This document shows, in pieces, positions 338 through 37,930 of a DNA stretch of 37,991 nt. Origin of the DNA: Methylococcales bacterium (GTDB taxonomy: Bacteria > Pseudomonadota > Gammaproteobacteria > Methylococcales > Methylomonadaceae); the NCBI GenBank assembly GCA_003584875.1, contig QVQD01000211.1:1-37991 (forward strand). The letters run 5' to 3'. Made by a program: the position numbers and the translations under genes. A model generated the notes under the pieces. It did no database searches and had not been told where the DNA came from. It was given only the letters and a program-made list of their open reading frames with translations. Within the stretch, counting starts at the first letter, position 1, and every line of letters starts with the position of its first letter.

Positions 338-403
338 TTATGTAGATAAATATGGCTGTTACATAGGGAGAAGCTAAAATAATAATACTTTCACAGTCTC
401 TTA
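338..403. repeat. right half of the composite inverted-repeat element
   Basis: AATACTTTCACAGTCTCTTA at 384-403 is the right-end sequence found again at 12281-12300, and with one mismatch at 26997-27014. The preceding GAAGCTAAAATAATAATA and the segment near 338-355 (TTATGTAGATA) match the right side of the element at 26640-27014. No matching left end is visible upstream, so this copy is truncated or rearranged. Confidence 0.5.
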
Positions 404-6967: not shown

Positions 6968-7091
6968 AGAGACTGTGAAAGTATTTTTTATAATCATCAA
7001 AAACGATAGCATTTGCCCTGAATATTACTCCACCCCAACCCTGACTCTGCACAGTTAAGCATTTGTAGGGGCGACAGATTAGCCCCTAAAG
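6968..7091. repeat. left half of the composite element with a GTAG REP
   Basis: AGAGACTGTGAAAGTATT at 6968-6985 is the left terminus shared with 12110 and 26640. At 7065-7091 GTAGGGGCGACAGATTAGCC begins a REP of the A family, whose own short hairpin runs into CCCCTAAAG. No right terminus follows before the 6S RNA gene, so this copy is one-sided. Confidence 0.5.
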
Positions 7092-7272: not shown

Positions 7273-7455
7273 CGTATCTCCTGCAGTAATCGAGAGTGTG
7301 CTGGGTGTTTCCTGAACCTGTTTTTACCCCGGGGTTGAAATCCGCTAATGGTGTGTATGCCCGTTTTATACGGGAAACCTGATTTACCGGTTACGTCCCC
7401 ACTTGAACCTCCGGTTCAAGGACGAAAGCACATAACGACACAGGCGGGAGATGCA
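7273..7455 (+). ncRNA. ssrS: 6S RNA
   Basis: The ends ATCTCCTGC (7276-7284) and GCGGGAGAT (7444-7452) pair over nine positions to close a long imperfect hairpin, as in 6S RNA. On the 3' side, TTGAACC/GGTTCAA (7403-7419) is the same small hairpin as in the E. coli RNA, and a CCCGT/ACGGG loop tip lies at 7360-7374. Length is about 180 nt. A -10-like TAAAAT sits at 7261-7266, which puts the start near 7273. The RNA mimics an open promoter and traps sigma-70 RNA polymerase in stationary phase. The common neighbour ygfA is not here. Recognised by eye only; a covariance-model search would settle exact ends. Confidence 0.88.
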
Positions 7456-12109: not shown

Positions 12110-12301
12110 TTAAGAGACTGTGAAAGTATTTTGATTTTAGTTTCCCCATCGGTACATTTTACACCGTAGGGACAGGTCGCGACCTGTCCCTACATTACGA
12201 TCGGCCTCTAGAGTAAGATCGATTTAAGGATTATTTTAATATATCAAATCTACCCTTCTTTGCTAGTTAGGGGAAATAATAATACTTTCACAGTCTCTTA
12301 A
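12110..12301. mobile_element. MITE-like element with 21-bp perfect inverted ends
   Basis: The ends 12110-12130 and 12281-12301 are exact reverse complements over 21 bases (core GAGACTGTGAAAGTATT plus a TTAA edge), and the similarity continues inward as TTTCCCC against GGGGAAA. The interior has no ORF but holds a 28-bp perfect palindrome at 12166-12193. The TTAA at both edges could be a target duplication or part of the repeat. Related ends occur at 384-403, 6968-6985, 26640-26656 and 26997-27014. A non-autonomous transposon is the simplest reading; no matching transposase is in the window. Confidence 0.65.
12166..12193. repeat. 28-bp perfect palindrome, GTAGGGACAGG family
   Basis: GTAGGGACAGGTCG is followed directly by its exact reverse complement, ending CCCTAC. 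A second copy at 36585-36610 shares both the core and the outer flanks (ACACCG on the left, CATTACGATCGGC on the right). A third fragment is at about 37931-37946. The GTAG head resembles REP sequences. Confidence 0.75.
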
Positions 12302-12422: not shown

Positions 12423-13187
12423 TTACATCAACGACAATAGTTCTTTTAAAATAAGTCCATTAGTCGCTAAGATTTGTTTAGGAAAAATACCGGCATTTCC
12501 TTTGAAATCAGTTAAAGTAGCACCCGCTTCTTTGGCAATTAAGGCCCCGGCAGCCACATCATATAAATTAAGCTCCTGCTCCCAAAAAGCATCAACTTGG
12601 CCATCTGCGACTAAACATAAATCCACAGCAGCTGAACCATATCGACGCTGACCTGTAGTGCTTTGAGCAATCCTAGCAAAACGCGGCAAATTATTTTCTT
12701 CTAAATAAGATCTCAAACAAGCAAATCCAGTAGCTACCATAGATTCAGCCAAATTATCGACAATAGAAACACTGATTGCTAGACCATTTTTACTAGCGCC
12801 TTTGCCCTGCTCTGCACAGTAATAATCATTTAAAGCCGGAGCATAAACAGCCCCCATGACTAACTCTTGATTAATTTCTAATGCGACACTAATTCCCCAA
12901 AAATACTGCCCTCGTGAAAAAGAATGCGTGCCATCAATAGGATCAACAATCCAACGATTAGTCTGATTGGCACTTTGACCGCTTTCTTCGCCCCAAAAAC
13001 CATACTCTGGACACCTATCAGTCAACGTTTGTTTTAAAAATGCCTCAACAGCGACATCGGCTGCCGTAACAAAGTCTCTAGGGCTTTTTTTATTAACTTC
13101 GACATTCTTCAAATCATTAAAATACGTTAACGCAATAGTTCCTGCTTCACGAACTATTTCCTCAAGCAGAGCGAGCGAAATTGACAT
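12423..13187 (-). CDS. inositol monophosphatase family protein
   Basis: 254 residues of the IMPase/FIG superfamily of Mg2+-dependent sugar phosphatases. Metal and phosphate ligands are visible as GEESG (66-70), VDPIDGTHS (81-89, with Asp82 and Asp85) and the distal Asp210 in YDVAAGALIAKEAG. Candidate substrates are inositol-1-phosphate, histidinol phosphate (HisN type) or 3'-phosphoadenosine compounds (CysQ type). PIDGTHSF differs from the PLDGTTNF of SuhB, so I do not assign one. The gene stands alone on the minus strand; uspA lies upstream with a 143-base gap. Confidence 0.85.
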   Translation of the reverse strand: MSISLALLEEIVREAGTIALTYFNDLKNVEVNKKSPRDFVTAADVAVEAFLKQTLTDRCPEYGFWGEESGQSANQTNRWIVDPIDGTHSFSRGQYFWGISVALEINQELVMGAVYAPALNDYYCAEQGKGASKNGLAISVSIVDNLAESMVATGFACLRSYLEENNLPRFARIAQSTTGQRRYGSAAVDLCLVADGQVDAFWEQELNLYDVAAGALIAKEAGATLTDFKGNAGIFPKQILATNGLILKELLSLM

Positions 13188-22899: not shown

Positions 22900-23040
22900 T
22901 AGGGGCATATTGCATACGCCCATTTATTGAAAGTTCAAGGTTTTAGGATGTATTTTATAAGGGCGTATGCAATACGCCCCTACGATATTCACCACAATGT
23001 TATCGTTCTTGCGTTGAATTTTTTTAATTATGTAGATACC
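22900..23040. repeat. REPIN-like pair plus long arm, GGGGC-TATTGCATACGCCC family
   Basis: TAGGGGCATATTGCATACGC at 22900-22919 and GGGCGTATGCAATACGCCCC at 22961-22980 are inverted copies separated by about 40 bases. The right flank continues with ACCACAATGTTATCGTT (22991-23007), an exact 17-base inverted match to 36484-36500, and ends in TGTAGATACC at 23031-23040, which matches the outer arm at 26681. Only the right long arm is present here. Confidence 0.7.
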
Positions 23041-25873: not shown

Positions 25874-26521
25874 ATGGAGTATCTTTCTCAATTTATCGAT
25901 ATTTTTTTACATCTCGACAAATCACTAAGCACTGTAATCCAAACCTTTGGATCAACGACTTATATTATATTATTTTTGGTTATTTTGTGTGAGACTGGCT
26001 TAGTTGTATTGCCTTTTCTGCCAGGTGATTCTTTACTTTTCGCAGCTGGAGCTTTTGCCGCAAAAGGTGATATGAATGTTGCAAGCTTATTGATGGCTTT
26101 ATCAGTCGCTGCCATCATAGGTGATTCTATCAATTATGAGATAGGTCGTTTAATCGGCCCTAAAATTGCCCAGCAAGAGAGGAGTCGATTCATCAATAAA
26201 GAGCATATCGCTAAGACTCATGAGTTTTATGAAAAATATGGCACTAAGACTATCATTATTGCCAGATTTATTCCTATCATTCGAACCTTTGCACCCTTTG
26301 TGGCCGGATTAGGCAACATGAGCTACAAAAAGTTTATTCGATATAATATGGTCGGAGGCATCGCTTGGATTAGTATTTGTTTGTTTGCCGGTTATTTTTT
26401 TGGCAATATTTCCATCGTTAAACAAAACTTTAGTTTAGTTATATTGGCTATTATTATAGTTTCACTGATCCCAGCAGTTATTGAGTTTATTAGACATAAA
26501 TCTAATTCCAAAGCAGCTTAA
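25874..26521 (+). CDS. DedA/VTT-family inner-membrane protein
   Basis: 215 residues with about five hydrophobic stretches. Family motifs: ETGLVVLPFLPGDSLLFAAG (F-PGD near residue 48-52), GDSINYEIGR, and RFIPIIRTFAPFVAGLGNMS, which holds the conserved arginines. DedA proteins move polyprenyl or other phospholipids across the membrane and influence proton-motive force and resistance to antimicrobial peptides. Several paralogues usually exist, so a gene name is not given. The nested repeat element starts soon after its stop. Confidence 0.9.
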   Translation: MEYLSQFIDIFLHLDKSLSTVIQTFGSTTYIILFLVILCETGLVVLPFLPGDSLLFAAGAFAAKGDMNVASLLMALSVAAIIGDSINYEIGRLIGPKIAQQERSRFINKEHIAKTHEFYEKYGTKTIIIARFIPIIRTFAPFVAGLGNMSYKKFIRYNMVGGIAWISICLFAGYFFGNISIVKQNFSLVILAIIIVSLIPAVIEFIRHKSNSKAA

Positions 26522-26529
26522 TAAATCAC

Positions 26530-26560
26530 GTAGGTCGAGTTTGCGATAGCCTAACTCGAC
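26530..26560 (+). repeat. GTAGGTCGAGTT REP
   Basis: GTAGGTCGAGTTTGCGATAG followed by CCTAACTCGAC forms an imperfect hairpin with the GTAG head at its foot. It is a variant of the TCGGGTTA family at 31571 and 37696, with G-to-A changes that pair on both arms. It begins 9 bases after the dedA stop. Confidence 0.55.
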
Positions 26561-26639
26561 TTTGCATAGTGTGTTAGTTGATTCACGGCTTCGTTGAAGG
26601 GTCGGCAGACGAAGTTTAAATTTTAGGGGCGACAGATTT

Positions 26640-27014
26640 GAGACTGTGAAAGTATTCTTTTTATTTCCCCCTCTTTAGCCATAGGTATCTACACAAATAA
26701 TTGTTAGCATTCCCACACGCTAACGATAACAAAGATAGTAGGGGCCTATTGCATACGCCCTTATAAAATAAGCTCTTTATCATTGGGCTTTCAAAGTTGG
26801 GCGTATGCAATACGCCCCTAGGGAGATTTTTATCGTTTCCACGCCGATAATAAACTTGTGTAAATACCTATGCTCTTTAGCAAAGAGGGGTTATGGGAGA
26901 TTGGGTCTATTATAAATAATCATTAAATATTAGTAGCCTATAACACAAAAAAACCCACCTCAGCCCCACTTTTACAAAGGGGGAAGCTAAAATCATAATA
27001 CTTTCAAAGTCTCT
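26640..27014. mobile_element. composite nested inverted-repeat element (three shells)
   Basis: Outer shell: GAGACTGTGAAAGTATT (26640-26656) against AATACTTTCAAAGTCTC (26997-27013), 16 of 17 matching. Middle shell: ATAGGTATCTACACAA (26681-26696) against TTGTGTAAATACCTAT (26856-26871), flanked by CCCTCTTTAGC and its complement-like GCTCTTTAGCAAAGAGGG. Inner shell: a REPIN of GTAGGGGCCTATTGCATACG (26738) against GGGCGTATGCAATACGCCCC (26799-26818). An unrelated palindromic repeat (CAGCCCCACTTTTACAAAGG at 26962) sits in the right part. No ORF lies inside. It fills the gap between convergent dedA and kup. Confidence 0.65.
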
Positions 27015-27042
27015 AGCGCTTACCCACACTACAGAGTAAAAG

Positions 27043-36355: not shown

Positions 36356-36446
36356 GCTTTATAACCTTAGGAAGTAAAAATTTATAGGTGCCTAGGCAAT
36401 GATTGATCAATCGTACATCGTAACAACTCTTTCCCCTGACTCATAA

Positions 36447-36622
36447 GTATCTACACAAATAATGGTTAGCATTCCCACGCGAAAACGATAACATTGTGGT
36501 AAAGATCGTAGGGGCGACAGATTCGCCCAGTATATTCGTTTGTTTAAACATTGCGAATCTGTCGTCCATACAGTATGAACACCGCAGGGACAGGTCGCGA
36601 CCTGTCCTACATTACGATCGGC
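36447..36622. repeat. chimeric repeat: long arm, A-family REPIN and B-family palindrome in a row
   Basis: The segment starts with the long arm (TATCTACACAAATAATGG and AACGATAACATTGTGGT, shared with 26684 and, inverted, with 22991). Next is a REPIN: GTAGGGGCGACAGATTCGCC at 36508 against GCGAATCTGTCGTCC at 36553-36567. Then the B-family palindrome (36585-36610) with ACACCG and CATTACGATCGGC flanks as at 12162-12208. The right long arm is missing. Confidence 0.7.
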
Positions 36623-37757: not shown

Positions 37758-37896
37758 GTAGGGTGGATAAGTTTTGTAGGGTGGATAAGCGCCAGCGCAT
37801 CCACCCAGTATGATCGAGTCCGTTTAGTCTACAAACTCAATGAGTGTCGCACACGATGCTATGTCTTGGTGGATGCGCTAGCGCTTATCCACCCTA
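37758..37896. repeat. REPIN, GTAGGGTGGATAAGCG family, with partial tandem head
   Basis: GTAGGGTGGATAAGCGCCAG (37776-37795), closing with CGCATCCACCC, faces an inverted copy ending GCGCTTATCCACCCTAC at 37880-37896. In front, an extra GTAGGGTGGATAAG at 37758-37771 duplicates the head, with AAGTTTTGTAGGGTGGATAA repeated in tandem. Confidence 0.75.
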
Positions 37897-37930
37897 CATG
37901 GCTATCCAAGGCGCCCATTGGGCAGCGCGT

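Follow-up and report, generated by a model that had tools for sequence, protein, structure and literature searches.

How three inverted repeats come to lie one inside another in a single intergenic gap is the question raised by a locus beside kup in the DNA of a Methylococcales bacterium. The window, meaning the whole stretch of 37,991 nucleotides that was analysed, comes from a host genome that its Kup protein relates to Methylococcaceae and Methylobacter. The preferred answer, to which we give a probability of roughly 0.87, is that non-autonomous elements inserted one after another to form the shells, and that each layer offers the hairpin favoured by the next. The nested repeats would then be roughly coaxial because each element prefers the palindrome supplied by the previous one.

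The gap, which the preliminary description placed between dedA and kup, is bounded by two convergent open reading frames (ORFs), ending at 26521 (+) and 27043 (-), and contains no ORF of 100 aa. Its outer inverted repeat (17 bp, 1 mismatch) bounds an element called O, the middle one (also 1 mismatch) bounds an element called M, and the inner REP is called REP1 (Table 1). Allowing up to 3 mismatches, the outer end GAGACTGTGAAAGTATT was matched 6 times in the window against 0.10 expected, and none of 100 shuffles reached 6; the middle end was matched 4 times against 0.12 expected, and the inner REP 6 times against 0.00, palindromes being scored on both strands. Genome-wide, at up to 2 mismatches, there were 132 outer ends, 220 middle ends and 318 inner REPs, and the reversed-pattern controls gave 0 matches for all three patterns. 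The three shells of the preliminary description are therefore real, and their numbers are far above the handful of copies below which it had regarded mobility as unlikely.

The common axis that it had proposed holds for the middle and inner repeats, centred at ~26776 and ~26780, but not for the outer repeat, centred at ~26827; M lies 40 bp from the left end of O. The other four outer-end matches in the window correspond well to what had been described. Those reported alone at 384 and 6968 are single ends, at 384 and 6969, the former adjoining a decayed M end (338-354), and the ends said to enclose a different core at 12110-12301 are an O pair at 12114/12281 with a GTAGGGACAGGTCGCGACCTGTCC REP inside. 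The middle arm reported near 36447 also leads into another core, as the arm at 36442 is followed by GTAGGGGCGACAGATTCGCCC. By contrast, 22983-23040, which had been taken for a further core, looks like a decayed M half joined to the same REP type. Elsewhere in the window are a 6S RNA at 7275-7454 (RF00013, 71.8 bits; no other Rfam family reaches its gathering score in the window), a GTAGGGTGGATAAGCGC-type pair of 34-bp inverted repeats 56 bp apart and 94% complementary (37775-37898), and two tandem copies, 79% alike, of a 42-bp unit (16-99).

Table 1. Coordinates of the repeat features in and around the kup gap and of related features elsewhere in the window
Feature	Positions	Strand	Evidence or remarks
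Uninterrupted REP hairpin GTAGGTCGAGTTTGC[GATA]GCCTAACTCGAC	26530..26560	.	Window sequence
Half of GTAGGGGCGACAG-type REP abutting O left end	26623..26639	+	Repeat family
O, interrupted by M	26640..27013	+	TIRs 26640-26656 and 26997-27013; no TSD at window copy (ATTT left, TAGC right)
Left copy of 9-bp target duplication CTCTTTAGC	26671..26679	+	One side of O-internal hairpin CCCCCTCTTTAGCAAAGAGGGG
M, 193 bp	26680..26872	+	TIRs 26680-26696 and 26856-26872; empty site rebuilt
REPIN core of M	26738..26821	.	GTAGGGG-tagged REP 26742-26760, spacer, inverted REP 26799-26817
Right copy of 9-bp target duplication CTCTTTAGC	26873..26881	+	Window sequence
Half of second REP type (TAGCGCTTACCCACACTAC), right of O	27014..27032	-	Window sequence, flanks
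O with perfect 4-bp TSD (TTAA), GTAGGGACAGGTCGCGACCTGTCC REP inside instead of M	12114..12297	+	
REPIN (22903-22979) joined to decayed M half (22983-23040)	22903..23040	.	Same REP type as window core
M left arm with different core GTAGGGGCGACAGATTCGCCC at same GTAG junction	36442..36528	+	Arm match
O right end	384..400	-	Beside decayed M end 338-354 (3 mismatches)
Lone O end	6969..6985	+	

Insertion was studied in 113 segments of the host genome, 266 kb in total, taken around listed matches. These contain 37 paired copies of O (43 single O ends were excluded) and 162 M ends, from which 56 paired copies of M were obtained, unpaired ends again being excluded.

An exact 4-bp target duplication (TSD) flanks 20 of the 37 copies of O, and in 9 more the two sides match at 3 of 4 positions; 8 copies have no recognisable TSD. 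When the flanks were re-paired, a mean of 2.0 exact duplications was obtained, with a maximum of 8 in 5000 shuffles. None of the 37 copies has an exact duplication longer than 4 bp. The TSD lies in the frame GC-N4-GC in 18 copies, and this is the loop of REP hairpins, for example GGGTTACGC[TATC]GCTAACCC. O thus inserts into palindromes and sits mostly in REP-hairpin loops with a 4-bp duplication. Folding energy was also considered as proof of loop targeting and was judged weak: the REP targets gave -10.1 kcal/mol against -8.3 (sd 0.5) for the controls, a value within reach of the lowest of 200 controls (-10.2). The copy of O in the window has no TSD, which counts against loop insertion at this site. 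A half REP lies on either side of it, and as the two halves belong to different REP types the flanks are hybrid; the loss of the TSD and the hybrid flanks probably result from recombination between O copies or from a flanking deletion.

The paired copies of M are mostly 199-202 bp long; the window copy is shorter than the family length of ~201 bp, 8 bp being missing from its left arm. Exact 9-bp TSDs were found for 15 of the 56 copies, 9-bp TSDs with one mismatch for 5 and exact 8-bp TSDs for 3, compared with a mean of 1.0 duplications and a maximum of 5 when the flanks were re-paired in 2000 shuffles. The M-like pairs of other genomes behave similarly (14, 4 and 3 of 43, respectively). Copies with no recognisable TSD, 33 of 56 here and 22 of 43 in the other genomes, count against this. 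The 31 exact 9-bp duplications available (15 here, 14 elsewhere and 2 from plasmid insertion sequences, a few of them repeated) approximate to CYYTNARRG. Their two halves are more complementary than when shuffled, 1.58 of 4 pairs compared with 1.01 (sd 0.15), but the top of 5000 shuffles was 1.61 and some TSDs in the set repeat. The targets of M include the GTAGGGG-like heads of REPs.

At the window itself, M is flanked by a perfect 9-bp duplication, CTCTTTAGC. Removal by script of M and one 9-bp copy leaves flanks that match solo O with 97% identity over 71 bp, and for 9 of the 56 M copies a solo O was matched across the junction after M had been removed in this way.

Some very short M-type forms were also observed. 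The smallest, in L225 (G020:C232, ~2511-2551), is 41 bp long and consists of two 17-bp TIRs separated by 7 bp, two of them N, with a perfect 9-bp TSD CCCGTTGGG; L222 and L223 contain forms of 64 and 68 bp whose TSDs are likewise perfect. They may be either very small movers or the products of deletion after insertion, and mobility is not claimed for the 41-bp element because its TSD would survive a deletion that came later. Separately, eight contigs of the host genome (G000), C25, C36, C56, C118, C124, C141, C159 and C168, start within ~150 bp of an M end, and some of the breaks in the assembly may therefore be due to M.

Empty sites were sought by comparing an 18-kb part of contig C4 with three related genomes, G019, G002 and G016. 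The M at C4:32860-33223 is missing in G019, where a single contig spans the site and the target is present once. This target is a ~270-bp dispersed repeat (L347:12200-12360 plus 12724-12835) with many copies in G002 and G016. The O (with M) at C4:28152-28585 is missing in G019 as well: the REP there reads GGGTTAGC[GACA]GCGTAACCC, and in the host the loop is present twice as GATA, flanking O on both sides. The next REP, empty in the host genome, holds an O in G019 with GCCA on both outer sides. The G019 sequence breaks at this O, the left contig entering other DNA and another contig starting inside O and resuming the right flank, and a rearrangement or an assembly join must therefore be involved. 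The preliminary description had looked to empty sites in a sister strain to reveal the insertion unit; orthologous empty sites thus exist in G019 for one M and one O.

The kup locus was also compared among relatives. Among 11 relatives' loci within 900 bp of kup, an O pair was found only in L204, from a Crenothrix polyspora MAG, arranged as GGTCGGGTTAGCGATA-[O]-GATAGCGTAACCCGAC; O matches there at both ends and M is not matched. The REP of L204 that is orthologous to 26530-26560 has O in its loop, and the uninterrupted REP of the window therefore represents the empty site. In L177 and L178 the two flanking genes are adjacent, with neither O nor M, and in L176 other DNA lies beside kup, with REP1. 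Matching contig coordinates identify L204 with G002, L176 with G019 and L177 with G016.

The innermost layer behaves differently from the other two. Among the cores of the 56 copies of M, 47 consist of two inverted GTAG-tagged REPs (GTAGGGGCGTATTGCATACGCCC ... inverted copy), 6 of one REP only (its loop in one orientation in four copies, in the other in two) and 2 of a GTAGGGGCGACA core, with 1 doubtful composite. At 161 arm junctions the arm leads into REP1 in 144 cases, into GTAGGGGCGACA in 4 and into something else in 13, namely 9 direct GTAGGG starts (several sequences, one of them a REP1 variant), 3 starts ~5 bp further in and 1 false arm match. No empty M slot was seen among the 161. As the slot starting with GTAG holds several REP types, the core is exchangeable. 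Of the first 100 of the 318 REP1 places, 90 were examined; an M arm or TIR lies near 84 of these (control 60 of 1000) and neither lies near the other 6. This indicates that REP1 spread mainly as cargo of M, and the idea that the REPIN spread chiefly on its own was set aside, 6 of the 90 REP1 places being without traces of M.

The possibility that the slot is a true exchange cassette, in which a RAYT acts at the GTAG tag in M and swaps REPINs in place, so that M is the docking platform of two transposition systems, was considered in the light of these counts. The varied REP types found at the same junction alongside the REP1 majority are in its favour, as are the single REPs in either orientation. 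The host genome has five Y1_Tnp (RAYT-type) genes: REP1 lies more than 1 kb from one of them (L173) and a GTAGGGGCGACAG REP lies ~200 bp from another (L171). That one of the five is ~200 bp from a GTAGGGGCGACAGATTCGCC REP also favours a cassette. The same products would, however, be given by recombination or conversion via the shared GTAGGGGC tag, or by slippage from one REP to the other at their 8-bp direct repeats; moreover, empty slots are absent from the junctions, and REP1 is without a demonstrated cognate RAYT. A RAYT-driven cassette is therefore conceivable but rather unlikely, and exchange in the slot may have occurred via RAYT action or via recombination at shared GTAGGGGC tags.

O and M are not confined to the host genome. 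At up to 1 mismatch, O ends occur in 17 of the 35 genomes of the genus, the host included, with 0 to 293 per genome, and M ends in 19 of the 35, with up to 205. Across the order, 67 of 301 genomes, from 15 of 50 genera, contain the exact M TIR, with 0 matches to the reversed pattern; at 2 mismatches the reversed pattern gave one match each in 3 of 8 genomes. M-like cores differ between species and the 43 pairs span 41-271 bp. Contigs filed as viral also gave matches, 5 to the exact M TIR and 4 to the O TIR, and four of the five M matches lie in or at open reading frames. The fifth, L340 11707-11723 (IMGVR_UViG_3300016670_000056), resembles a real element end.

This distribution bears on whether selection, rather than target choice, assembled the nest. 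On that account hairpins accumulate in convergent gaps because they serve to terminate transcription or to stabilise RNA, and nesting reflects no more than crowding in tolerant gaps. The window gap is indeed convergent, and excerpts of one account place REPs mostly between unidirectional and convergent ORFs (PMC3733652). Crowding, however, would not yield a duplicated 4-bp loop, or M in hairpins internal to O with a 9-bp duplication, and the range of O ends among the 35 genomes of the genus is burst-like. Selection as the origin of the nesting is thus improbable.

That the outer, middle and inner repeats move together as one composite element is more improbable still. The same three layers do recur in the same order at C23:1880 and C8:4850. 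Solo O, with a length of ~170 bp, is nevertheless represented by 9 copies of 155-175 bp that have no M, and L204 provides a further O without M. Within 420 bp, O ends lie on both sides of 13 of the 56 copies of M, on one side of 13 and on neither side of 30, from which it follows that O is only one of the targets of M. For M with at least one perfect end the figures are 8 of 44 (both sides) and 10 of 44 (one side), compared with 0.35% and 8.7% for 2000 random 200-bp slots in the window. M also lies at varied places and in varied orientations within O, each element having a TSD of its own length, and at C16:9245, C25:4560 and C55:2801 a perfect 4-bp TSD for O is found together with a perfect 9-bp TSD for M. 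Reverse nesting, with O inside M, was rejected as a pattern, only one doubtful case (C89:5098-5512) having been found. In that case, at ~399-813 of L103 (G000:C89), the REP that holds O has a decayed M-like end on each side.

An artefact of collapsed repeats in a draft assembly of 240 contigs, at least 8 of them starting within ~150 bp of an M end, is scarcely credible, as the nested copy of the window lies inside a contig between long ORFs and separate assemblies share the elements and the matching empty sites.

Nested insertion is therefore well supported for O and M. Of the two possibilities raised by the preliminary description, insertion of non-autonomous elements into each other is borne out for these two layers by solo copies, distinct TSDs, restoration of the target and empty sites, the REPIN being instead mainly cargo of M. 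A single element that swaps its core applies to the innermost layer alone, where different GTAG-type REPs occupy the same junction in the M slot. It had held that shells never found apart, in copies that are all colinear, would mean one element; solo copies of both O and M speak against this.

The possible parents of the two elements were also sought. In L215 (G041, 305-1740), TIRs matching those of O at 17/17 and 16/17 positions surround a 411-aa transposase in an element of ~1.4 kb. The transposase matches the IS1182 model NF033551 with E 4e-96 (322.7 bits, cut-off 270). This copy has no exact 4-bp TSD (CCCA/TCCC), and the host genome gives 0 matches to the transposase at E 0.001 in an assembly that is 97.55% complete; both points count against this parentage. 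The L215 transposase may be shortened, and another of this group, in L309, runs off its contig. In G003, G004 and G020, too, O TIRs lie beside ORFs, or pieces of them, that resemble IS1182, and the remaining IS1182 relatives fetched have no close O TIR. Judged by its ends, O is a MITE of an IS1182-family insertion sequence (IS).

For M, a 1.37-kb IS on an Acinetobacter plasmid (L398, 480-1849) has an uninterrupted gene annotated as a transposase. Its TIRs match those of M at 17/17 (left) and 16/17 (right) positions and its TSD, CCTTAAAAG, has 9 bp, the same length as that of M. A Citrobacter plasmid copy (L400) has the TSD CCCAAGATG and 3 and 1 TIR mismatches. Both were reached through the plasmid relatives of one piece of a decayed 1.39-kb copy with M ends in G095 (L314), whose pieces match IS4 models weakly and mostly behind an FlhF model. 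The assignment of L398 to IS4 is made via a 63.5%-identical relative, L397, whose matches to IS4 models fall short of the curated cut-offs. Among NCBIfam models, L397 scores highest against one for FlhF (76 bits, the cut-off being 951), which is taken as an oddity of that model. The whole IS4-like copy with M ends comes from another order than the host, which counts against a direct link, and lone M ends in G041, G018, G003, G020, G007 and G016 have no adjoining transposase in flanks inspected by eye. M would accordingly be classed as a MITE whose termini are those of an IS4-like IS, the closest known counterpart being the IS4 family of the IS50/IS10 kind. IS1182 and IS4-like transposases, respectively, probably moved O and M.

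On the preferred reading, successive insertion proceeds as follows. REP hairpins are present at gene ends. O enters a REP loop and duplicates its 4 nt, bringing with it two hairpins of its own (such as CCCCTCTTTGCTAAAGAGGGG and CCCCCTTTGTAAAAGGGGG in L204). M inserts in such hairpins, and also elsewhere, at palindrome-like targets of 9 bp (CYYTNARRG), and carries a GTAG-tagged REPIN in a slot that can hold other REP types. As M carries the REPIN as cargo, its transposition would multiply REPs.

A more speculative extension, which we advance tentatively and consider doubtful, is that M both carries REPINs and serves for their exchange: as an IS4-like (DDE) MITE it would spread a GTAG-bounded docking slot in which a RAYT or tag-guided recombination loads and swaps REPINs, while REPs attract O, O hairpins attract M and M plants REPs. 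If this were true, REPs would be amplified by three transposition systems that feed one another in a cycle, and not by RAYT alone. The multiplication of REPINs as MITE cargo bears on how REPs become so numerous, and an IS1182-type element that duplicates a 4-nt hairpin loop offers a natural test of structure-guided transposition.

A limited literature search gave no recognised published account of O, M or such nesting; although the components belong to known kinds, their layering and the exchangeability of the innermost one look new. According to excerpts of its description, IS1272 (IS1182 family) inserts at inverted repeats, the hairpin being replaced and no TSD formed, and its authors' model draws loop duplication as one pathway (PMC5678879). 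O resembles it in having the TIRs of an IS1182-family IS (L215) and palindromic targets, but differs from what is described there in keeping the hairpin, duplicating the 4-nt loop and having no transposase gene (PMC5678879). REPs are known targets of IS, and Tobes and Pareja, in the portion of their paper concerned, report the IS4-family ISRm22 inside REPs (PMC1525189). M shares its 17-bp TIR and 9-bp TSD with the IS4-like L398, but it is ~201 bp long and geneless, has a GTAG-REP slot and is nested in another MITE.

The inner core of M, two inverted GTAG-tagged REPs and a spacer, is like the GTAG-REPs and REPINs described in excerpts of two papers (PMC3733652, PMC3116915), and GTAG-15 dimers are reported to lie within long palindromes in Anabaena variabilis (PMC3733652, section 7). 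Compared with these accounts, in the parts cited, the surrounding palindrome here is a TSD-bearing MITE that spreads the REPIN, with several REP types in its slot. The MITE with a minisatellite in Porphyromonas gingivalis, as excerpted, is likewise a bacterial MITE with an internal repeat, but the cargo of M is a REPIN and the whole is nested in another MITE (PMC4596501). The novelty of the present system resides in its matched target preferences and in the REP slot.
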